Assembly: GCA_017512365.1 (NCBI GenBank)
Contig: JAFWGQ010000073.1
Location: forward strand, 1 to 64,000
Direction of reading: 5' to 3'
Length of the DNA stretch: 64,000 nt
DNA from: Mogibacterium sp.
Lineage (GTDB): Bacteria; Bacillota; Clostridia; Peptostreptococcales; Anaerovoracaceae
The stretch's first letter is position 1, and each line of letters begins with the position of its first letter. Shown in pieces: positions 4,971 through 59,875 of the stretch. Both the position numbers and the translations under genes were made by a program. The notes under the pieces were generated by a model. The model ran no database searches, had not been told where the DNA came from, and worked only from the letters and a program-made list of their open reading frames with translations.

Positions 4971-5850
4971 GCTTCGAGAAAGACCGGGTCACCTGTGTCA
5001 GGAATCTTTCGGCGATAGGGGTTAGCACCTGATACCTGCCCCATATAAGATAGAAACTGGATTCCTTGACCGGATCAAGTGGCCTGAAAACCAGGCCGCT
5101 TCCTTCAGAACAGTCGACAAGATGCTCGAATGTCAGGAGTACCCCAAGTCCTTCGAGTGCAAACATTGAGCCGTTGTATGAAAGGCGGAATGATCCCTCA
5201 AGACGGAGATCCCTGAAATGATCTCCCGCCCACTCACTGATCTCACGATCCCAGCTCTGCTCCGAGGAGAATAACGGCACACCGGTAAGGTCATCAGCTG
5301 TGATGGCCTTTTTCTTTGCCAGCGGATGTGAGTCGGCCATTACAGCTCCCCAGATATCTGTATGAGGGAAGGTGATGTAATTATATTTGCGGGCGTCCGG
5401 GATCTCGCTGGTTATCACGGCGAAATCGAGCAGCCCCTTGTCGAGCTTCTCCGTGACCTGCTCGGTGTCCCCGCTGGTGATGTGGTAGTTCAGTCCCGGA
5501 TATGCAGCCTTGAACCTGCCGATCTCCCTTGCGAGGTATCTGATCTGATAGGATTCCGCAAGTCCGAAGTACAGATCTCCTCCGGTGATGTCATCGAGCG
5601 ACATGAATTCCTGCTCTATCTTGTCGGCCATTGCCACAAGGTCCTCAGCTCTGTCACGCAGAAGAATTCCTTCTTCAGTCAGCTGGATGCTGAAACTTCT
5701 GCGGATGAACAGCTTCTTGCCGAGTTCACCCTCCAGGGACTTGAGAGTCTTGGAAAGGGTGGGCTGGGTCACATGCAGCAGCTCTGCCGCCCTTGTCATG
5801 TTTTCTTCTCTTGCGACCGCGAGAAAGTATCTGAGACTGCGAATATCCAT
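4966..5850 (-). CDS. LysR-family transcriptional regulator
   Basis: At 294 residues it has an N-terminal helix-turn-helix (LRYFLAVAREENMTRAAELL, then QPTLSKTLKSLE) and a C-terminal effector domain with typical FDPD-type sensing folds. Ribosome site AAGGAG precedes the ATG. It is divergent from the 74-residue protein and hydrolase genes at 5.9-7.2 kb, with 95 bases between, so these are the likely targets. Not close to the other two LysR proteins in the window beyond the common fold. Confidence 0.88.
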   Translation of the reverse strand: MDIRSLRYFLAVAREENMTRAAELLHVTQPTLSKTLKSLEGELGKKLFIRRSFSIQLTEEGILLRDRAEDLVAMADKIEQEFMSLDDITGGDLYFGLAESYQIRYLAREIGRFKAAYPGLNYHITSGDTEQVTEKLDKGLLDFAVITSEIPDARKYNYITFPHTDIWGAVMADSHPLAKKKAITADDLTGVPLFSSEQSWDREISEWAGDHFRDLRLEGSFRLSYNGSMFALEGLGVLLTFEHLVDCSEGSGLVFRPLDPVKESSFYLIWGRYQVLTPIAERFLTQVTRSFSKQ

Positions 5851-19800: not shown

Positions 19801-21156
19801 ATGTCATTGAAACAAAAGCGCGAAGAAGGTATTTCACTACGGACCACTCAGATATTGCTTGTGATCGGGGCAGTTATTATATCCTGCCTCATGCTCTTTT
19901 CCACATATCATCTGTCTGTCAGCTTCAGAAACCTGGCGGATACCTCCGAGGAACAGATAGAAATGAGAAAGGCGGCGCGCGAGCTGATGGATGCTTCGGA
20001 TTATCTGACGGAAAACGTCCAGCGTTTCACTGTCAACGGTGACACGCGTTTTATGGATAAATACTTTACCGAGGCGTTTGAGTCGAACCGGAGGGAGGAT
20101 GCTCTTTCGACAATGGCGAGAGACGCCGGCAAAACAGATGCGCTCAAACACCTTCAGACTGCGATGGATGACTCCGTAAAGCTGATGGAGACGGAATACT
20201 ATGCAATGCGTCTGGTGATAGAGGCGAAGGGATATACAGACTATCCCGACGTCCTGAAGGATACAGTACTGTCAGACGAGGACAAGGCGCTCAGTCCCGG
20301 AAGGAAGATGCGCCGCGCGAACGAAATGGTCCTCAGCGACGAGTACTATGAACAGAAGGAACAGATAAGAGAAAACATGAGAGCCAGCCTGGATGATCTT
20401 GAGAGGATGGCTTACGACACGGATGAGGAGGCGCTTGATTCATTGCGCAGCGAAATGACTGCTGTCCGCGTGATAATAGTGATCCAGATAATCGGCATAC
20501 TGATACTGGTGCTGCTGACATCACGTCTGGGGATCGATCCGGTCCTGAACGCGGTGGACCGCATCAAGGCAGACAGTCCTATCCCGGAAGTCGGCGCGAA
20601 TGAATTCCGCTATCTGGCACGTACATACAACAAGATGTATGAGGCGTACAAGAGAAGTCTGGAACGCCTCAATTTCAAAGCTTCCCATGATGAACTGACA
20701 GGAGCATATAACCGCTCGGGGTACGAGCTCATGGTGTCGGGCCTTGACCTGAACAGCACCTTCATGATGCTTGTCGATGTAGACAATTTTAAAGATATCA
20801 ACGACACGTACGGACACGAGACCGGGGACAAGGTCCTGATCAGACTGGTGGATGCGCTGAAAAACAACTTCCGCTCCGACGACTATATCTGCCGCATGGG
20901 CGGAGATGAATTCGCAGTGTTCATGGTGCATGTTCCGGAAACACAGCGACAGCAGATCGTTCAGAAGATCGAAGCGGTAAACAGGACGCTTGGGGAGTCG
21001 CAGGACGGACTTCCGCCTGCCTCCATCAGCGCCGGCATCGCGCACGGCTCGAGTGCTGCAGATATCGAAGACCTGTACGGGAAAGCGGACGAGGCCATGT
21101 ACAGGGCGAAACACAGCGGCAAGCATACTTATGCGTTCTATGAGGACAAAGCCTGA
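19801..21156 (+). CDS. Membrane-bound diguanylate cyclase (GGDEF)
   Basis: It has 451 residues: transmembrane helix about 14-35, an extracytoplasmic helical sensor of about 190 residues, a second helix near 222-241, then a GGDEF domain with the motif intact (about 367) and an RxxD inhibitory site five residues before it (RSDD). It should make c-di-GMP from two GTP and be feedback-inhibited. The sensor is not a PAS or CACHE that I recognise. It ends 157 bases before the phosphatase gene. The gap holds a hairpin CATGTCT/AGACATG (21209-21230) but no strong T-run, so co-transcription is possible. Confidence 0.92.
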   Translation: MSLKQKREEGISLRTTQILLVIGAVIISCLMLFSTYHLSVSFRNLADTSEEQIEMRKAARELMDASDYLTENVQRFTVNGDTRFMDKYFTEAFESNRREDALSTMARDAGKTDALKHLQTAMDDSVKLMETEYYAMRLVIEAKGYTDYPDVLKDTVLSDEDKALSPGRKMRRANEMVLSDEYYEQKEQIRENMRASLDDLERMAYDTDEEALDSLRSEMTAVRVIIVIQIIGILILVLLTSRLGIDPVLNAVDRIKADSPIPEVGANEFRYLARTYNKMYEAYKRSLERLNFKASHDELTGAYNRSGYELMVSGLDLNSTFMMLVDVDNFKDINDTYGHETGDKVLIRLVDALKNNFRSDDYICRMGGDEFAVFMVHVPETQRQQIVQKIEAVNRTLGESQDGLPPASISAGIAHGSSAADIEDLYGKADEAMYRAKHSGKHTYAFYEDKA

Positions 21157-21313
21157 CAGAGCCGCGGGCCACACGCCTGTCCGCGGGGCTCCGTGCCCGG
21201 ACTCAAGTCATGTCTTTTACTATAGACATGAGGGTGACAATAAAATAAAATTATAGCAATATGCAACAGTTCTGCAGACTGTATTTTTTTGAAAAGAGTA
21301 AAGGTAACTGTAA

Positions 21314-22807
21314 ATGAAGAAAACGACCGAAGGAACAAAGAAGGAAAGCAAGACTTTTGTGGGCAAGCTGAGGGAGGAATTCCTGCATACTACGGAAACT
21401 CTCTGGAACAACGAGGTCCAGGCAAACCTCTTCGTTGCGAGGATCCTCCTCTATACGGCGGTGATCGCCTTCATCATCATCGTGCTGTCGGTGCTGCATG
21501 TTTTTTCGATCAGCAACGCCGTCATGATGCGTGCTCTCACGATCGCCATAATCGAGATGATGGCGGCCGCCCTGATCTGCTTCTATTTCAAAGGCGAGAA
21601 GCCATGGCTCAAGATACTGCTGATGACCGCGTATGTGGTAGTGCTTGCGCGGCTGCACATGGTGCTGGGGCATAACATAGTCCTCTGCCTGGTATTCCCT
21701 GTCGCGCTGTCGGTCAGGTATTATTCGCGTCCTCTGACTTCATATGTCTCGGGACTTACTGTAATAACGTACCTGCTTGCAAGCTGGTACGGCATCACCC
21801 ACGCGATCACAAGGGTGGATCTCAACATGGTCGAGCTGCCGGGCGGCACGGTGCTGGAATTCCCGGAAGACACCCAGCTCAGAAATGTGATAGACCCGTC
21901 TCTTATCGACTATAACAAGCTGTTCATTCGTTTTCTGCAGCACAGCTTCCTGCCGAAATTCATACTGTTCATGATGATCGCCATAATCTGCGCGCTGATC
22001 GCGGAACGCGGCAGGCAGGCAATATACGCTCAGAAGGAAGAGACGGAAAAGACCGAGAGACTGGCGACAGAGCTGGATCTCGCGAGCAATATACAGACAA
22101 ATGTGCTCCCTAACATATTCCCGGTATTCCCGGACCGCAAGGAGTTTTCACTGCATGCGTCGATGACTCCGGCAAAGGAGGTCGGCGGCGACTTCTATGA
22201 CTTTTTCTTCGTGGACGATGACCACATTGCTCTTGTGATGGCTGATGTTTCGGGCAAGGGCATACCTGCGGCTCTGTTCATGATGGTAGCGCGTACGATC
22301 ATCAAGAACAGGACAATGATGGGAGGTTCTCCTTCAGAGATCCTTCACGATGTGAACGACCAGCTCTGCGAGGGAAATGTAGCAGAACTCTTCGTTACTG
22401 TATGGCTCTGTATCCTCGAGATATCCACGGGCAAAGGCGTCGCCGCGAATGCCGGTCACGAGCACCCGGTCCTCCGCAGAAAAGGCGATGAGTACGCTCT
22501 TGTAGTCTACAAGCATTCACCTGCTGTTGCCGCGATCGAGGGTATGAGATTCAAGGATCACGGATTCGAGCTGAAACCGGGAGACAGCATTTTCGTTTAT
22601 ACCGACGGAGTCGCCGAAGCGACCAATTCATCGGATGAGCTTTTCGGCACGGACCGCATGCTCGATGCTCTCAACAGGGACCCTGACGCCATGCCTGAGC
22701 AGGTACTGAAAAATGTGCTGGACGGGGTCAACGAATTCGTCAGGGGAGCGGAGCAGTTCGATGACCTGACCATGCTGGGACTGAAGTACTTCGGTCCGGA
22801 GAGATAA
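21314..22807 (+). CDS. Membrane-anchored SpoIIE/RsbU-type protein phosphatase
   Basis: The protein has 497 residues. About 40-230 hold six or so hydrophobic helices, then a helical linker and a PP2C-type phosphatase (about 255-497) with metal-binding motifs EVGGDFYDFF, MADVSGKG and the late FVYTDGVAEA and QFDDLTML. This domain dephosphorylates Ser/Thr phosphate, classically on STAS anti-sigma antagonists that are phosphorylated by RsbW-like kinases. The next two genes encode proteins starting with RsbW-like domains, so the phosphatase and kinase fold sit in one operon. A close relative with a different membrane part lies at 56.7 kb. Confidence 0.92.
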   Translation: MKKTTEGTKKESKTFVGKLREEFLHTTETLWNNEVQANLFVARILLYTAVIAFIIIVLSVLHVFSISNAVMMRALTIAIIEMMAAALICFYFKGEKPWLKILLMTAYVVVLARLHMVLGHNIVLCLVFPVALSVRYYSRPLTSYVSGLTVITYLLASWYGITHAITRVDLNMVELPGGTVLEFPEDTQLRNVIDPSLIDYNKLFIRFLQHSFLPKFILFMMIAIICALIAERGRQAIYAQKEETEKTERLATELDLASNIQTNVLPNIFPVFPDRKEFSLHASMTPAKEVGGDFYDFFFVDDDHIALVMADVSGKGIPAALFMMVARTIIKNRTMMGGSPSEILHDVNDQLCEGNVAELFVTVWLCILEISTGKGVAANAGHEHPVLRRKGDEYALVVYKHSPAVAAIEGMRFKDHGFELKPGDSIFVYTDGVAEATNSSDELFGTDRMLDALNRDPDAMPEQVLKNVLDGVNEFVRGAEQFDDLTMLGLKYFGPER

Positions 22808-22822
22808 CAGATCGGGGTTTCT

Positions 22823-24427
22823 ATGGATATTTCAAACATAAGAAGTCAGGAGAATAAGTTCCTGCTCAACGCGGAAGAGATCGACCGGATCACGGAAGAA
22901 CTCATGGAAGTGCTGTCGAATGAACCGGTCGACCGTAAGGACGCCCTGCGGCTGAAGTTTATTCTGGAAGAGGCGCTGCTGAACTACAGAGATTCCTTCC
23001 CTGAAGGGACTCTCGCGTCCCTGCGTTTCTCCCGCGGCCTCGGGACGTTCAGGATCTCCCTGAAGGTCGAAGGGGAAAGCATGGATCCTTTCGCGGAGAA
23101 TGATTCATCCGTTACTTCTGTCATGGGGTCGCTTCTCGCCAATTCAGACATGCTGAACAGGGCCTGGAAGTACCGGGGCGGTGCTAATCTGGTGACCTTC
23201 ACCCTGATGAAAAAGCGCAAGCTCGGACAGATCGTCACTATCCTCATTGGAGTTCTGGGCGGTGCTGCGTGCGGAATTCTGCTCAAGGCGCTGGTACCGT
23301 CTCATGCCGGGGATATCGCGACGCGGATCATCATGCCGATCACGAATGCCTATGTAGGCCTTCTCTGCGTCATGGCGACTCTGATGTGCTTTGCGGCCAT
23401 TGCCCTGGGCATCGTACGGCTCGGAGACATATCGACATTCAGTACCGTAGGAAAGAAGATGATCCGGAGTTTTCTCTGGGTCGCGTTTTTCCTGACACTG
23501 ATCTGCACCATCTGCATGGTGCCGGGGATGCACTTCGGGCGTTCGGCTGAGATGTCGCTCGACTTCTTCGACTTTTTCGACATAATCATCAGCTTTGTCC
23601 CGAACAATATCCTGACGCCTATTCTGGAGTTCAACTCCGTCCATATAATCATCATAGGCATCATGTTCGGCGTGGCTATGCTGCACATGGGACAGAAGGC
23701 GGATCAGCTGACAGAGATCTTCGATGAGGTCAATATCGTGGCCATACTCTCGAATTCCTACCTGACCCGCTTCATCCCGGCTTATGTCGGGCTGATGGTC
23801 TGCGAACAGATCCTGTCCGGATCCTTCTCGGCTCTTTCGGGCTTCCTGAAGCTGTTCCTGATGGTGCTCGCGGCCGATTTCGTAACGCTTGCGGCCTACA
23901 CCGCAGTCGTCTGCATCCGCCTCAGAGTCAGCGTGCGGACCTTTGTACACAAGATGCTGCCGTCCTTTATCATCGCTCTGACGAGCGCCAGTGTCGGTGC
24001 GGTATTCATGCCTGCGATCGATGTCCTGATAGGAGATCTCGGTGTGGACGGCGATTATGCGCCTCTGGCATATAATCTGGGCAGCATCCTGTTCAGGCCT
24101 GGCTACTGCATCGTCTTTATCGCATGCAGCCTTTTCACGGCAGGCATGTACGGTATCGAGGTCACCTGGTCGTGGGTAGCTGCGGCATTTTTCCTTTCCT
24201 TCATCCTTTCGGTGGCTACGCCGCCTGTGGTCGGAGGGACCACGGTATGTTTCTCGATACTGTTTTCCCAGCTGGGGCTTCAGTCGCAGGCTCTGGCCAT
24301 GATAATATCGATCAATGCGTTCCTCGAGTTCATGACGGTCGCTGTCAATACATACAGCCTGCAGAGCCAGATCGTCCTGCTCGGGAATTCCATCGGTGAA
24401 CTGGACATCGACAAACTCAGAAGCTGA
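22823..24427 (+). CDS. RsbW-like domain fused to DAACS-type symporter, copy 1
   Basis: Residues 1-130 resemble an RsbW-like GHKL domain: an N-box-like helix KFILEEALLNYRD, a G1-like ESMDPF and a closing strand YRGGANLVTFTLMKK, as in anti-sigma kinases. From about 138 to 510 the protein is an eight-helix glutamate/dicarboxylate symporter (SDF) fold with two hairpin regions. Transport motifs are altered: HP1 reads TSASVGAVF instead of a Ser-rich loop, the NMDGT motif of helix 7 is replaced (YNLGSILFRPG), and helix 8 keeps the last Asn (AVN) but not the substrate Arg. It may be a receptor or a carrier with new specificity. Starts 15 bases after the phosphatase. Confidence 0.8.
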   Translation: MDISNIRSQENKFLLNAEEIDRITEELMEVLSNEPVDRKDALRLKFILEEALLNYRDSFPEGTLASLRFSRGLGTFRISLKVEGESMDPFAENDSSVTSVMGSLLANSDMLNRAWKYRGGANLVTFTLMKKRKLGQIVTILIGVLGGAACGILLKALVPSHAGDIATRIIMPITNAYVGLLCVMATLMCFAAIALGIVRLGDISTFSTVGKKMIRSFLWVAFFLTLICTICMVPGMHFGRSAEMSLDFFDFFDIIISFVPNNILTPILEFNSVHIIIIGIMFGVAMLHMGQKADQLTEIFDEVNIVAILSNSYLTRFIPAYVGLMVCEQILSGSFSALSGFLKLFLMVLAADFVTLAAYTAVVCIRLRVSVRTFVHKMLPSFIIALTSASVGAVFMPAIDVLIGDLGVDGDYAPLAYNLGSILFRPGYCIVFIACSLFTAGMYGIEVTWSWVAAAFFLSFILSVATPPVVGGTTVCFSILFSQLGLQSQALAMIISINAFLEFMTVAVNTYSLQSQIVLLGNSIGELDIDKLRS

Positions 24428-24431
24428 CAGG

Positions 24432-25994
24432 ATGAGACAGAAACTGACGAACGACAACATCAACATAGCCTGCGGGGAGGCGGGGGAGTTCCTTAAGGGG
24501 CGCGGCTGCGCGTCAAAGGAAGTCCTCAGAGTCACCTTCAGCCTGGAAGAGGTGTTGCTGAACTATCAGAGAATGCTCGGGCCGGATGCGGAATTCATAA
24601 TGGATACCGGCAGCGGGCTCGGCAGGAGCAGGATCCGGATCACGGTGCCGGGAGAAGAGACCGACCCGTACGCGGACATCGGATCTTTCTCTGATGAGGA
24701 TACCTTCATAAGGAACGCGCTGAACCAGATGGGAAGGCTCCCCAGATGGAGCTACAGGCGCGGCGCAAATACAGTACTGTTCACTACGGACAGAAAAAAG
24801 ATGCCGGAGTGGATGAAGCTCTGCATCGCGATAGCGGCGGCAGTGCTCTTCGGCTTAGCGATAAGACTGCTGCCCGCAGACATTGGGGCGCTGATCCGCG
24901 ACGGGATCGTGGCTCCGCTGATCAGTACTTTCCTGGGCTTTCTCAACGCCGTAGCCGGACCGATGATATTCCTTGCCGTCGTGTGGGGCATATACAGCAT
25001 AGGTGACGCGGCGACCTTCAGTGAGGTCGGAAAGCGTCTCAGCAGGAACGCGGCCGTACTTCTTGTGGCCATGACTTCCGCTGTCGCCCTCGTGACCATG
25101 CCGCTGTTCAGGCTGAACTACAGCGGCGGAAAGGCAGGCGGCGATTTCTCATCGCTTTATCAGATGGTGCTCGATATAATCCCGTCCAATCTGTTCACGC
25201 CGTTTTCTCGCGGCAATACGCTGCAGATACTGTTCGTAGCCGTGATCGTGGGCATAGCGATGCTTCTCATCGGCAAGAACACTCAGGCGGTGGCTGAACT
25301 GGCGGAGCAGCTGGGCTTCATAGTCAACGGCATCATGAACGTTATCAGCAGCCTTGTCCCTGCATTCGTATTCGGGAGCCTTTTCACCATAGTGGCTTCG
25401 AGCGATTTCAGCAGGCTTGCGTCCGGAGGCAAATTCTTCATCGTCTCCGCGGCAGGTTGCGCTCTGCTTCTCATCATGCACACGGCCTGTACCTGTCTGA
25501 GATGCAGGATCAGCCCGGCGATGCTGTGGAAGGCCGCGATGTCGACTTTCGTCATTGCGATCACCACTGCATCATCATCCGCGGCGTTCTCGGATAACCT
25601 GCACACCTGCACGGATAAACTCGGCATCAGCAGCAGGCTTGCCAATTTCGGAGTGCCGTTCGGCCAGATACTGTACAAACCCGGCGTAGCGGTGCTCTTC
25701 TGGTTCTCCGCCGTCAGTACCGCGGAGTCGGAACACATAGACGCTTCCCTGACATGGATAATCACGGCACTCTTCATGTGCATCGTGCTTTCGGCCGCGG
25801 CGCCGCCTGTCCCGGGAGGCATGAGCGCGAGCTTCACGATACTGTTTGCGCAGCTGGGCCTTCCGGCGGCAAGCATAGCCATTATCCTGTCGCTCACATC
25901 GATACTGGATTTTCTGGTCACGGGGACCAATATATTCTCCGGTCAGTGCCTTCTCAGGATGACATCAGAGTCGTACGGCGAGGGGAGACAATGA
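24432..25994 (+). CDS. RsbW-like domain fused to DAACS-type symporter, copy 2
   Basis: Same architecture as the preceding gene, from which it is separated by four bases. Residues about 1-118 hold the RsbW-like part (FSLEEVLLNYQRML, TDPYADIG, YRRGANTVLF), the rest an SDF-type transporter. This copy keeps a Ser-rich HP1 loop (TASSSAAFSDN) and PPVPGG in HP2, and helix 8 has LDF...GTN, so Asp and Asn positions remain but the substrate Arg is Val. NMDGT is again absent. GTG 24396 is an in-frame alternative start overlapping copy 1. The pair could form a heteromer. Substrate unknown; an acidic amino acid is less likely without the Arg. Confidence 0.8.
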   Translation: MRQKLTNDNINIACGEAGEFLKGRGCASKEVLRVTFSLEEVLLNYQRMLGPDAEFIMDTGSGLGRSRIRITVPGEETDPYADIGSFSDEDTFIRNALNQMGRLPRWSYRRGANTVLFTTDRKKMPEWMKLCIAIAAAVLFGLAIRLLPADIGALIRDGIVAPLISTFLGFLNAVAGPMIFLAVVWGIYSIGDAATFSEVGKRLSRNAAVLLVAMTSAVALVTMPLFRLNYSGGKAGGDFSSLYQMVLDIIPSNLFTPFSRGNTLQILFVAVIVGIAMLLIGKNTQAVAELAEQLGFIVNGIMNVISSLVPAFVFGSLFTIVASSDFSRLASGGKFFIVSAAGCALLLIMHTACTCLRCRISPAMLWKAAMSTFVIAITTASSSAAFSDNLHTCTDKLGISSRLANFGVPFGQILYKPGVAVLFWFSAVSTAESEHIDASLTWIITALFMCIVLSAAAPPVPGGMSASFTILFAQLGLPAASIAIILSLTSILDFLVTGTNIFSGQCLLRMTSESYGEGRQ

Positions 25995-27307
25995 TGAAAG
26001 AACGTAATTCTTTGTCAGAATATCAGAAAGAGTTTCTTGCAAGGATCATCGGCATCCCGTCAGTGGGAGGAGATCCTTCGGAAGGGGCTCCCTACGGGGA
26101 AAGAGCCAGGGAAGTCCTGCGGGCGTTCCTCGATGAAGCAGAGGCAAAAGGCTTCAGGACAGGAGTCACAGGCGACAGGGCCGGCTGGGCGGAGTTCGGC
26201 GAAGGAGACAGGCTCCTGGGCATCATATGCCATCTTGATGTAGTTCCTGTCGGAGACGGATGGAGATCAGATCCGTTCACGCTCGATATCAGGGAGGATG
26301 AAGCCGGCAGGGAGATCATGTACGCGCGGGGGATCGTCGATGATAAAGGTCCTGCCTGCGCCGCTTTTTTTGCCATGCTTGAGCTTGCGGATGAAAGACT
26401 GATCCCGGATGATCACAGGGTGAGACTGATACTGGGAACAGATGAGGAGCGGACCTGCTCATGCATACAGTATTACGCCGCCCATGAGGAGATACCGGAC
26501 TTTTCCGTCACGCCTGATTCGATATTCCCTGTCGTATACTGCGAAAAGGGGATCCTGCACCTGAAGTTTTCCGGAGAGAACACGAATGGACTGGATGCTC
26601 ACGGAGGCAGCGCTGTCAACATAGTGCCTGTATCAGCCCGCTGCGTTGCTGACGGCAGGACGATAACAGCAGAAGGAAAGGCCGCGCACGCTTCCAGGCC
26701 GGAGCTCGGGGTCAATGCCATAGAGTTGCTGGCAAAAGCCATGGAGGAACAGGGGCTGGATCTCAGCAGGCATCCCGTCATGAAGTTCGTAAGGGATTTC
26801 GACGCAGAAAGCTTTACCGGGTGTGATGCTTCAGGAGAATACGGGGAACTCAGCTGCAATTTCGGCGTGCTCAGCGCGGATAAAAACGGCTGTGAGCTTG
26901 AGCTCGATCTCAGGATACCAAGCGATGCGGATAACGGCAGAGTGACAGACAGTCTTGCAGGGAAAGCATCGGAATACGGACTTGAGACACAGGTGACACT
27001 CGATATGCCTCCTTTCCTTAAGGATAAGAATTCTCCGCAGGTCAGGGCTCTTACGGAAATATGGAAAAGGCATATGGACGGGTTTACCGGCTTTAAGGAA
27101 GAGTACAGGGATATCCACGCCGGGCCGAAGGTCGTAGGCGTAGGGACCTACTCGCGGCATATGCCGAATACGATAGCTTTCGGGATACAGGCGCCGTGGC
27201 ATACAGATCAGTGCCATCAGGCCGATGAGCACGCGGCGGTCACCGATTTTCTGCAATGGATCCGGATGATCAAAGAATTCATCATGGAGGCGGAGAAGTA
27301 CCTTTAA
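25991..27307 (+). CDS. M20-family dipeptidase (PepV/Sapep-like)
   Basis: ATG overlaps the transporter stop (ATGA), so translation is coupled. The 438-residue protein shows the M20 zinc residues: HLDVVPVGDGW, RGIVDDKGP and GTDEER, plus the lid domain and a late DQCHQADEHA (final His region). PepV-type enzymes cleave dipeptides, often with an acidic or beta-Ala residue. Its position directly behind the double transporter suggests that the imported ligand is a dipeptide or acylated amino acid that this enzyme splits. That is inference from context. Confidence 0.88.
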   Translation: MMKERNSLSEYQKEFLARIIGIPSVGGDPSEGAPYGERAREVLRAFLDEAEAKGFRTGVTGDRAGWAEFGEGDRLLGIICHLDVVPVGDGWRSDPFTLDIREDEAGREIMYARGIVDDKGPACAAFFAMLELADERLIPDDHRVRLILGTDEERTCSCIQYYAAHEEIPDFSVTPDSIFPVVYCEKGILHLKFSGENTNGLDAHGGSAVNIVPVSARCVADGRTITAEGKAAHASRPELGVNAIELLAKAMEEQGLDLSRHPVMKFVRDFDAESFTGCDASGEYGELSCNFGVLSADKNGCELELDLRIPSDADNGRVTDSLAGKASEYGLETQVTLDMPPFLKDKNSPQVRALTEIWKRHMDGFTGFKEEYRDIHAGPKVVGVGTYSRHMPNTIAFGIQAPWHTDQCHQADEHAAVTDFLQWIRMIKEFIMEAEKYL

Positions 27308-56730: not shown

Positions 56731-58266
56731 ATGGAGTATATAAGTAAAAAACAAAAGAGACTGGCTGCAGTCACCGCGATCGTATATGTGTCGATGATCA
56801 TTATATGCATTGCGGGACTGTATCTCAGAGGAGTCAACAACATGGTCCCGATCTATGTGTTCAATGTCGCCATGGAACTGGTCTCTATGGCTACGGGGTG
56901 CGTGCTTTTCCTCTGCTGTCTCATAGATGTGCAGAAATCCGGTTCGAATCTCAGATATTTCATATACATGCTGAATGTCGGCCTTTTCTCTCTGTTTACG
57001 GATGCCGGAGCGTGGATTATGGAAGGAGTCGCGTCGTTATGGCGTCTGAACTACATAGATAATTTCGTACTCTTCCTCTGCGGACCGTTATCTGCGTTCT
57101 GCTTCTGGAAGTATGCAAGCGATGTATTGGTCCTGAACAAACCGTTTGAGCATATACTGGACAAGGCGGTAACATACGGACTTGCCGTGCCTGTGATAAT
57201 GAGGATCATCAACATATTCAACGGCATGTACTTTAAAGTCCTCACATTCGGATTCTACAGAAGGGGCCCGCTGTACCCTCTTTCAAACATGTATGTGGTG
57301 TTCGTGCTTATCGCCGTTACGGTTACGGTGATAGTAGAAAGAAAGCAGCTCGATACCTACCAGTTTGTTGCGGTCATGATGTACATATTCGCTCCGGTCG
57401 CGGCTATAATACTGACTACATTTGTGTACGGCCTTTCGGTGAGCAGCTCTGTTGTGATGCTGGTTCTGCTCCTCATGTACTGCATACTCAATGTATCTCA
57501 GGGCAGAGAAAAAGCAGCGGCTGACAGAGACCTTGCGATGGCATCGAACATACAGGAAACGATCCTTCCGAGGATATTCCCGTATCTGCCGGAGCGTGAT
57601 GAATTCGATATCTACGCCAGCATGACTCCTGCGAAGGAAGTCGGCGGAGACTTCTATGATTTCTTCATGATAGACGATGACCATATCGCGATCGTCATTG
57701 CCGATGTATCCGGTAAAGGCATGCCTGCCGCACTGTTCATGATGGTTGCGCGCACACTTATCAAGAATCAGGCACAGAGCGCATCAAGCGACAAGGATCC
57801 GGGACACATTTTGTCAGAGGTCAACGACCAGCTCTGCGATGGAAACGAAATGGGACTGTTCGTTACGGCATGGCTTGGCATCATCACGCTTTCGACCGGG
57901 CACATGGTCTATTCAAGCGCGGGTCATGAATATCCGGCTCTGAGCGAAAACGGTAAGGAATATGTGCTCCGCGTCGAAAGGAACATGCCGCCTCTCGCGA
58001 CCATGGAAGGGCTCAGGTTCAAAACCAGAGAAATCGACCTTAAACACGGGGATACTCTGTTCATATATACCGACGGTGTGGCAGAGGCTACGGATGTCGA
58101 CGGAGAGCTGTTCGGAACAGACCGGATGCTCGATGCTCTCAACGCAGATCCTTCGGCTGACCTTGAAAAGCTCGATAAGTCTGTCAGAGACAGTATCGAT
58201 GAGTTCGTGGCAGACGCTCCTCAGTTCGATGACATAACCATACTGACATTCAGATACACAGGTTAA
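56731..58266 (+). CDS. Membrane-anchored SpoIIE/RsbU-type protein phosphatase
   Basis: The protein has 511 residues: about 10-255 hold seven or eight hydrophobic helices, about 262-511 a PP2C phosphatase with EVGGDFYDFF, IADVSGKG, SAGHEYPAL, FIYTDGVAEA and QFDDITIL. The catalytic half is closely similar to the phosphatase at 21.3 kb (shared stretches such as ASMTPAKEVGGDFYDF), while the membrane half is different, so the two probably share a type of substrate but sense different inputs. No RsbW-like or STAS gene is next to this copy. Ribosome site CAGGAGA. Confidence 0.92.
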   Translation: MEYISKKQKRLAAVTAIVYVSMIIICIAGLYLRGVNNMVPIYVFNVAMELVSMATGCVLFLCCLIDVQKSGSNLRYFIYMLNVGLFSLFTDAGAWIMEGVASLWRLNYIDNFVLFLCGPLSAFCFWKYASDVLVLNKPFEHILDKAVTYGLAVPVIMRIINIFNGMYFKVLTFGFYRRGPLYPLSNMYVVFVLIAVTVTVIVERKQLDTYQFVAVMMYIFAPVAAIILTTFVYGLSVSSSVVMLVLLLMYCILNVSQGREKAAADRDLAMASNIQETILPRIFPYLPERDEFDIYASMTPAKEVGGDFYDFFMIDDDHIAIVIADVSGKGMPAALFMMVARTLIKNQAQSASSDKDPGHILSEVNDQLCDGNEMGLFVTAWLGIITLSTGHMVYSSAGHEYPALSENGKEYVLRVERNMPPLATMEGLRFKTREIDLKHGDTLFIYTDGVAEATDVDGELFGTDRMLDALNADPSADLEKLDKSVRDSIDEFVADAPQFDDITILTFRYTG

Positions 58267-58763: not shown

Positions 58764-59102
58764 ATGAATATGAACATAATTGATGACTTTAGCATACCTG
58801 TCATAACGGCAGCATCTCTCTGTATAGGCTATGTCATGAAGAAATGGCTGCCGACAGATGACAAATGGATCCCGACGGTCCTTCTGGTTATCGGAGCCAT
58901 TTCGGGGCTCATTTTATTTGGCCTGAATTACGAGGGGGTCGTGAAAGGCATGGTCAGCGGCCTTGCTGCAGTAGGACTGCATCAGGCATTCAAGCAGCAT
59001 CTCAAGCTGCCGATGGGTGATGATGAGATCCACGCAATGGGCGCAGGCAAAATACCGGAAGACGAAGAAAACACCACCGATGAGGAGGGAGGCGAAAAGT
59101 AA
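58764..59102 (+). CDS. Phage holin
   Basis: The 112-residue protein has two to three hydrophobic helices (about 12-27, 38-54 and 58-72) and an acidic tail (DDEIHAMGAGKIPEDEENTT), the layout of Firmicute phage holins. A holin permeabilises the membrane so that the endolysin can reach the wall. It overlaps the amidase gene by one base (TAATG), the typical lysis cassette arrangement. Confidence 0.8.
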   Translation: MNMNIIDDFSIPVITAASLCIGYVMKKWLPTDDKWIPTVLLVIGAISGLILFGLNYEGVVKGMVSGLAAVGLHQAFKQHLKLPMGDDEIHAMGAGKIPEDEENTTDEEGGEK

Positions 59103-59875
59103 TGAGTAACAGCAGCCTTGTGACATATAAGAAGATTGTCAGCAATAAGGACCCGGGACGCGGAGGAAAGAAGATCGATAAAATCTTCGTGCATCACATG
59201 GCAGGCAACCTGACTGTACAGCAGTGCGGGAATGTCCTCTCCTCGAGGCAGGCATCCGCTCACTACGGGGTCAACGGGAAGAACATCGGCCAGTATGTTG
59301 ATGAAGCAGACACGGCCTGGCACTGCGGCAATTACTCGTACAATCAGAGGTCCATCGGCATCGAACTCGCGAATGATGGCGGAGCTTCAAATAACTGGCA
59401 TGTCGCTGATGCGACCATAAATACAGCCATCGAACTCATCGCAGATATCTGCATGAGGAACGGCATCAGCAAACTCAACTTCACAGGTGACCTGAAAGGC
59501 AATCTCTGCATGCACAGCTACTGTGCTGCGACCGCCTGCCCGGGAGGATACCTCAAAACGAAGTTCAAGTACATCGCTGATCAGGTCAACCAAAGGTTGT
59601 CATCGGAGACGCCAGGCAAACCTCCGAACAAAAACAAATGGCTGAATTATCAGCTGCCGTTCACAGTCAAGGTGACAGACAAGGATCTGTATATCAGATC
59701 AGGGCCCGGCACCAACTATAAGACAGTAAAGGTGTCCGGAAGTGCATTCATAAAACCCGGAGTCTATACGATCATACAGGTCAAGGAAGCCGGCGGATAC
59801 ACTTGGGGGAAACTCAAGAGCAGCACCGCGAAGTCACCAAGATGGATCGCGCTCGATTTTACAACTAAAAAGTAA
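59102..59875 (+). CDS. N-acetylmuramoyl-L-alanine amidase (phage endolysin)
   Basis: The protein has 257 residues. About 15-160 form an Amidase_2 (PGRP-like) domain with zinc residues in IFVHHMAGN, a late His region (LCMHSYCAATACPGGY) and the Cys of ACPG; about 180-257 form an SH3-like wall-binding domain (LYIRSGPGTNYKTV). It cleaves the bond between muramic acid and the stem peptide. No signal peptide, so export needs the holin. Confidence 0.92.
   Translation: MSNSSLVTYKKIVSNKDPGRGGKKIDKIFVHHMAGNLTVQQCGNVLSSRQASAHYGVNGKNIGQYVDEADTAWHCGNYSYNQRSIGIELANDGGASNNWHVADATINTAIELIADICMRNGISKLNFTGDLKGNLCMHSYCAATACPGGYLKTKFKYIADQVNQRLSSETPGKPPNKNKWLNYQLPFTVKVTDKDLYIRSGPGTNYKTVKVSGSAFIKPGVYTIIQVKEAGGYTWGKLKSSTAKSPRWIALDFTTKK

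Follow-up and report, generated by a model that had tools for sequence, protein, structure and literature searches.

GHKL-like domains with an apparently dead ATP site on glutamate-transporter folds: possible membrane nodes of a partner switch without an alternative sigma factor in a Mogibacterium genome

The window analysed here is a stretch of 64,000 nucleotides from a Mogibacterium sp. genome (assembly GCA_017512365.1, contig JAFWGQ010000073.1). Positions 21314-27307 hold four tightly packed genes encoding a membrane phosphatase of the PP2C/SpoIIE type, two proteins in which a GHKL-like domain is fused to an SDF (DAACS) transporter fold, and an M20 dipeptidase. Partner switching is known above all for releasing sigma factors. 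The reading favoured here, put slightly short of an even chance, is that both fusions belong, as membrane nodes, to a partner-switching network without an alternative sigma factor as its target in this genome. This reading draws on the apparent loss of the nucleotide site from the GHKL-like domain (termed pseudo-GHKL), the loss of sodium-site residues from the SDF domain, and the association of such fusions with switch genes in related genomes. The features of the locus are listed below, with class II as defined for the SDF domains further on.

21223..21251, + strand: sigma-70-like promoter match (TAGACA-17-TAAAAT, 10 of 12 positions matching) ahead of the operon
21314..22807, + strand: membrane PP2C/SpoIIE-type phosphatase (P0001), 497 residues, ATG start; Pfam SpoIIE, 4.4e-45
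22823..24427, + strand: fusion 1 (P0002), 534 residues, with a pseudo-GHKL domain at about residues 1-130 and a class II SDF domain at 138-511; Pfam SDF, 3.5e-39
22823..23218, + strand: pseudo-GHKL domain of fusion 1, with the N-box EEALLN kept, the G1 Asp replaced by Val and no GLG
24432..25994, + strand: fusion 2 (P0003), 520 residues, with a pseudo-GHKL domain at about residues 1-122 and a class II SDF domain at 127-504; Pfam SDF, 1.8e-52
24432..24803, + strand: pseudo-GHKL domain of fusion 2, modelled with AlphaFold2
25991..27307, + strand: M20 dipeptidase (Sapep/PepV-like); Pfam M20, 1.4e-16

The genes and their spacing confirmed an earlier reading of the bare sequence (the sequence-only reading): 15 bases separate the phosphatase from fusion 1, 4 bases separate fusion 1 from fusion 2, and the start of the M20 gene overlaps the stop of fusion 2 (ATGA). 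The phosphatase, with its catalytic domain at residues 301-491, scored 154.4 bits against PF07228 (PP2C/SpoIIE; cut-off 25). Fusions 1 and 2 scored 135.4 and 179.1 bits, respectively, against PF00375 (SDF/DAACS; cut-off 27.9), the match spanning 374 and 378 residues behind roughly 125-135 N-terminal residues, and the M20 protein scored 294.8 bits against the NCBIfam Sapep dipeptidase model (cut-off 207.95). Among the open reading frames of the window no STAS or sigma factor gene was found beside the operon, as the sequence-only reading had also noted.

The source genome (G000; 2.46 Mb, 92.9% complete, 6.94% contaminated) contains seven SDF genes, six of which are fusions. The nearest named relative of P0003, at 81%, comes from a Mogibacterium metagenome-assembled genome from goat ileum (Anaerovoracaceae). 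At a threshold of 1e-7, a profile of the N-terminal domain matched 129 of the 349 family genomes, a count that takes in GHKL domains of other proteins too, and at 1e-8 it matched 14 of 398 genomes sampled across the phylum, the source genome included; SDF fusions in the phylum sample fell in families f15, f37, f50 and f116. In total, 68 single-gene GHKL-SDF fusions were collected from 39 genomes, leaving out one fusion whose GHKL domain is split by an insert (L066) and one candidate that was no fusion (L079). The possibility that the two domains are always separate genes and were joined by artefact, raised in the sequence-only reading, was thereby ruled out.

Pfam barely detects the N-terminal domain. 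HATPase_c_2 reached 12.2 bits on fusion 1 (E = 0.19; cut-off 27.4), gave no match on fusion 2, and was still below its cut-off on a fusion paralogue on contig C24 of the source genome (E = 3.4e-5); family-level evidence was therefore needed. A profile built from 20 fusion N-domains only (A3) matched 138-residue frames in genomes G123 and G093 at 7e-13 and 3e-12, and these frames are GHKL proteins adjoining STAS genes. Alignment of 67 fusion N-domains with 20 GHKL domains of switch proteins using hhalign gave a probability of 98.8 (E = 5.5e-17, 117 columns), compared with 0.4 for a STAS profile used as negative control against the fusion N-domains. For the N-domain of fusion 2, an AlphaFold2 model computed from a 67-sequence alignment (A4) had a mean predicted local distance difference test score of 89.2, a predicted template modelling score of 0.81 and the order strand-helix-helix-strand-strand-helix-strand-strand. 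When the N-domain profile was run as a hidden Markov model against solved structures, only chance-like matches came up (for example designed helical proteins and neurolysin). Judging from profile comparison and modelled secondary-structure order, the fusion N-domain is a GHKL relative of the RsbW type, in agreement with what had been proposed from the sequence.

The ATP site of this domain looks dead. Across the 68 fusions the DxG Gly is kept in 66, whereas the G1 Asp of the same motif is present in none of them, compared with 19 of 20 comparison kinase domains. Furthermore, the GLG motif (G2) is absent from P0002 and P0003, and a GLG/GIG pattern in the C-terminal part was seen in only one of the 68 (L067), within an insert. 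Since the 20 comparison domains were picked by their GLG pattern from matches that were neither MATE proteins nor fusions, GLG is present in 20/20 of them by construction and only the G1 Asp count compares freely. The lid-bearing segment is also mostly shorter in the fusions (median 31, range 19-47, versus 39 residues). Because the ATP-site Asp is missing in 68/68 fusions, the domain should not be a kinase. Other positions are strongly conserved, including the first N-box Glu (65/68), the second N-box Glu (56/68) and the Asn of the closing GxN strand (68/68); the first and last of these point to a pseudo-GHKL domain under constraint. The N-box (EEALLN/EEVLLN) and closing strand (RGGAN/RRGAN) picked out in the sequence-only reading were both found in the window proteins, and the N-box Glu and Asn of RsbW-type kinases are both kept there, the Asn being retained in just 10/68 fusions overall. 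The reading of the N-domain as an active serine kinase and anti-sigma factor of the RsbW type, joined to a transporter, is nevertheless very improbable, given the missing G1 Asp and GLG motif and the finding of no region-3 sigma factor in the source genome besides an RpoD-like one; the RsbW-like resemblance noted earlier thus does not extend to kinase activity.

The SDF half of both window proteins is matched by solved structures of the GltPh type, and residues were assigned by GltPh numbering as presumably equivalent to Asn310, Asp312, Asp394, Arg397, Asn401 and Asp405. The NMDGT motif of solved aspartate transporters reads YKPGV in P0003 and FRPGY in P0002. At positions 310, 394, 401 and 405, P0003 has Tyr, Asp, Asn and Gly, and P0002 has Phe, Glu, Asn and Leu. 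Both window proteins therefore lack the sodium-site residues Asn310 and Asp405 and retain Asn401. In contrast, among 37 plain SDF proteins Asn310 is kept in 36 and Asp394, Asn401 and Asp405 in all 37. Asp312 and Arg397 are changed in the window proteins as well; these two were left out of the tally of lost key residues, since plain SDF proteins also vary there. Of 83 fusions examined (excluding L246, L247, L248, L249 and L258, which repeat genomes already sampled, and the short or broken L260, L261 and L262), 59 lack both Asn310 and Asp405 (class II), 18 keep both (class I) and 6 are mixed, the class II count including both window proteins and L074, which is cut off before Asp405. A FastTree phylogeny of the SDF part placed the 83 fusions apart from the 37 plain proteins (support 0.928), the pattern that a single ancient fusion event in this sample would be expected to leave. 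Within the tree, a group consisting mainly of class II is distinct from the branches of class I and mixed forms, with L067 as an exception. NCBIfam scans of the 30 fusions of set A5 returned only models of the DctA/GltP/SstT type, and P0003 fell far under their cut-offs. From the topology of SDF transporters, the N-domain presumably lies on the cytoplasmic side. The sequence-only reading had left open whether the SDF fold acts as a symporter or as a receptor; loss of the sodium-site residues from both domains fits the receptor.

Fusions are linked to switch genes more often than plain SDF genes are. A PP2C, STAS or GHKL gene was found within 3 kb on the same strand for 11 of 33 fusions and for none of 37 plain SDF genes (Fisher p = 8.9e-5). 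The 33 comprise two genome samples not chosen by neighbourhood (15 and 12 fusions, the latter without two broken matches, G557 C36 and G924) and the six of the source genome, with 3/15, 5/12 and 3/6 linked, respectively. The 37 controls come from 30 fusion-bearing genomes and do not include the plain SDF gene of the source genome (contig C39). Flanks are incomplete near contig ends for fusions L074 and L078 and controls L215, L224 and L244, and neighbours were labelled with profiles built for this analysis except where Pfam is named. With the split fusion L066 added the result was 11/34 (p = 1.1e-4), and counting by locus gave p = 1.9e-4. The count of 20/68 linked fusions in the whole set was not used as evidence, because G388, G394, G480 and others had been chosen for neighbouring GHKL matches.

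The gene orders confirm that in some relatives the fusions share operons with genes for STAS, GHKL kinase and PP2C; the sequence-only reading had proposed a co-occurrence search for SpoIIE and such fusions. Within the family these include two fusions, STAS and PP2C-GHKL with overlapping ends (G388); fusion, STAS and STAS-APH-GHKL (G394); PP2C, fusion, STAS and STAS-APH-GHKL (G408); STAS, STAS-APH-GHKL and fusion (G430 and G415); STAS, PP2C-GHKL and fusion (G480); and two fusions, RelA_SpoT, HD-APH and STAS (G042). Outside the family, G557 has STAS, fusion and PP2C with gaps of 41 and 8 bases, G800 has STAS and fusion at one place and PP2C and fusion at another, and G923 has STAS, PP2C-GHKL and fusion. 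The Ser-Ser motif was invariant in 16 of 16 aligned STAS proteins. In the source genome itself, a PP2C gene lies upstream of the fusion at two of five fusion loci, at 15 bases in the window and at 605 bases on contig C51, where a small open reading frame intervenes. A rough estimate of this arising by chance is about 1e-5, with a 700-base limit that was set after the gaps had been seen.

The M20 gene showed no comparable association. Around the other members of the 68-fusion set, a profile made from one sequence found no M20 match within 4 kb, and the gene was dropped as a functional partner. The import of a peptide-like ligand under phosphatase control, as suggested from the sequence alone, was consequently not borne out.

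Other components of a switch were found elsewhere in the source genome. There are eight strong SpoIIE matches out of 11, and STAS domains occur on contigs C72 (two domains) and C17; the STAS partner noted as missing in the sequence-only reading is thus absent from the locus itself and present on these contigs, and it adjoins the fusions in some relatives. One protein on C72 combines STAS, APH and HATPase_c_2 domains with intact motifs (HATPase_c_2, 2.1e-21), and it is the predicted true GHKL kinase of this genome. At L026 5117-7068 its gene follows one for a STAS protein of 104 residues, an APH-like kinase domain lying between its own STAS and GHKL domains, and this two-gene arrangement recurs in several family genomes. 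A single Sigma70_r3 gene was detected, encoding 416 residues and RpoD-like by inspection. No sigma-B/F/G-type factor was found by Sigma70_r3 in this 92.9% complete assembly, in which a gene could have been missed. A Sigma70_r3 match was present in 16 of 18 further fusion genomes. Of the 15 family members among the 18, 12 carry a single match and G388 carries two, while none was found in G480 and G430, which are 59 and 71% complete. For most family genomes, then, no sigma-B/F-type target is apparent.

In the proposed mechanism, the pseudo-GHKL domain would be a cytoplasmic relative of RsbW and SpoIIAB that has kept the fold, lost the nucleotide site and become attached to an SDF membrane domain. 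Phosphorylation of a STAS protein on its conserved Ser would fall to a separate true GHKL kinase (in this genome the STAS-APH-GHKL protein of C72), and removal of the phosphate to the PP2C encoded just upstream of the fusions. Unphosphorylated STAS could then dock on the pseudo-GHKL domain as it does on RsbW. Most likely, the SDF part of the window proteins would serve as a ligand receptor whose state alters STAS docking, and not as a sodium-coupled importer. Sensing is favoured because the sodium-site residues are gone from these class II proteins, because the paralogues are many and the STAS genes few, and because an SDF-family transporter, DctA of E. coli, is known to act as co-sensor of the signalling kinase DcuS (PMC8307970, PMC3892338).

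Several observations weigh against fusions acting as sigma-independent receptor nodes. Switch partners stand beside the fusion at only two of 23 annotated named loci, five of which repeat genomes already sampled: RUG14601 (MATE, PP2C, STAS, STAS, GHKL, a fusion with a broken frame, MATE) and RGIG3020 (PP2C, GHKL, fusion, with STAS on the opposite strand). No partner was found within 3 kb of 22 of the 33 unselected fusions. In orthologue clades read by eye from the SDF-part tree, linkage was seen in 1/18 members of the P0003 clade, 1/6 of the P0002 clade and 1/7 of the C51 clade, and in all three the sole linked member is the source genome; strong linkage is found in different clades (7/11 and 3/4). 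Class II status and linkage were not correlated (Fisher p = 0.28). The MATE-GHKL proteins of the source genome look more like regulated effectors than receptors. Finally, G557, G800 and G923 have 2, 2 and 3 Sigma70_r3 matches, so that a sigma target is possible outside the family, and within it G388 has its second match.

The foremost alternative, which is unlikely though it deserves serious weight, is that the switch regulates transport, with unphosphorylated STAS on the pseudo-GHKL domain opening or closing an SDF (or MATE) transporter of non-canonical coupling. Two unrelated transporter folds, SDF and MATE, bear GHKL domains at opposite termini in the source genome and its relatives, MATE-GHKL genes also run together with PP2C genes (L030, L172), and the 18 class I fusions keep Asn310 and Asp405. 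Both window proteins have nevertheless lost these two residues, which plain SDF proteins almost invariably keep. Altered rather than lost transport is possible for them, since Asp312 and Arg397 vary in plain SDF proteins and Asn401 is kept.

The unlinked orthologues of both window fusions in nearly all sampled genomes, together with the 22 partnerless unselected fusions, would also be accounted for if the pseudo-GHKL domain were a relic that now only helps the SDF protein to fold or assemble and the PP2C gene a chance or loosely co-regulated neighbour. This is considered improbable. Linkage across the family is significant relative to plain SDF genes, module types of the switch recur in families f1, f50 and f116, and the conservation of the closing-strand Asn and first N-box Glu argues for constraint.

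A broader and more tentative proposal, given somewhat less credence than the membrane-node reading of the window fusions, is that a partner switch, free of sigma factors in this family at least, is widespread and works through proteins of transporter fold. GHKL domains that are nucleotide-dead on SDF proteins, with related ones on MATE proteins, would form a family of receptors or gates in the membrane for STAS proteins to read, PP2C inputs and numerous membrane nodes would converge on one or two STAS hubs, and a RelA/SpoT alarmone gene would belong to the operon in some lineages. Two runs bear on the last point: L064 631-6860 contains RelA_SpoT (Pfam) and HD genes, as does L129 5754-11039 (RelA_SpoT by eye), and besides STAS the runs encode two GHKL-SDF fusions or else a PP2C-GHKL protein, a gene order that hints at an alarmone link to the switch.

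The nearest known systems share some of these properties. The RsbU-RsbV-RsbW and SpoIIE-SpoIIAA-SpoIIAB switches of Bacillus have a PP2C phosphatase, a STAS protein with a conserved Ser and a GHKL fold, as described in PMC11418112. The same three components recur beside fusions in some relatives; in contrast to the Bacillus switches, the GHKL domain of the fusions lacks the nucleotide site and is joined to an SDF fold, the true kinase is a separate protein (STAS-APH-GHKL or PP2C-GHKL), and no sigma-B/F-type gene was found in the source genome. A switch with a non-sigma output is already known: SiaABCD of Pseudomonas aeruginosa is likewise phosphatase-controlled (SiaA being a protein phosphatase by NCBIfam name) and acts through SiaC on the diguanylate cyclase SiaD (PMC8457831). 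There the effector is a cyclase whose stalk is bound by SiaC, and the available portion of that source describes no transporter or pseudo-GHKL domain. Unlike the fusions, DctA and DcuS are separate proteins in contact through helix 8b at the DctA C-terminus, and DctA actively transports (PMC8307970, PMC3892338). SLC26/SulP proteins resemble the fusions as transporters bearing a domain of the partner-switch type, the domain being STAS and not GHKL and the transporter family another one (PMC8256260). The MATE-HATPase_c_2 proteins of the source genome (L280, L281) also combine a transporter with a GHKL domain, which in their case stands behind the membrane part and in L280 keeps DxG and GLG.

No report of GHKL-SDF fusions, or of SDF proteins in partner switching, was found among open-licence PubMed Central papers, and Pfam and NCBIfam scans match the parts of the fusions, not their combination. 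Switch components co-occur with transporter-fold proteins, and in several lineages are co-encoded with them, in family genomes mostly without a sigma-B/F-type factor by the region 3 test. If the proposal is true, phosphatase signalling would be connected with the membrane directly at the protein level, the numerous SpoIIE-type phosphatases of these bacteria would gain a possible target, and the proteins with a glutamate-transporter fold would include a further family that may have given up transport for signalling.

Three MATE-GHKL proteins are encoded in the source genome, two recognised by Pfam and one by a profile built for this analysis. L281 595-3285 (C32) combines MATE, HATPase_c_2 and HD-CE domains (Pfam), L280 1492-3255 lies on C19, and L030 275-2068 (C55) is a MATE protein with a degenerate C-terminal GHKL domain, detected by the built profile. 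On C55 the run continues after the last of these with an ATP-grasp-like gene (by eye) and a gene for a SpoIIE phosphatase (L030 3777-5528). A Nif11-type leader peptide gene (L029 1582-2037; Pfam 6.9e-7) lies upstream of a SpoIIE phosphatase, and on C51 the small open reading frame between phosphatase and fusion (L022, about 5226-5575) is leader-like and has no Pfam match. In the genus, fusions of 760 residues (L111 6106-8388, L207 5170-7452, L149 and L152) have a further hydrophobic module N-terminal to the pseudo-GHKL domain, and each of their genes follows a HAD-like one (by eye).

A defence role for the window genes was dropped, the four proteins having no PADLOC match at 0.01. The sigma-70-like promoter at 21223..21251 is suggestive only; a scan of the region gave eight promoter-like sites versus 4.1 (standard deviation 1.9) in shuffled sequence. 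Directly 5' of the phosphatase operon on the same strand is a GGDEF diguanylate cyclase gene (19801-21156; Pfam 1.3e-34). A second membrane SpoIIE/PP2C phosphatase is encoded at 56731-58266 (Pfam 3.7e-46), with no adjoining switch partner seen, and is followed by an amidase-like gene (by eye) at 59102-59875.

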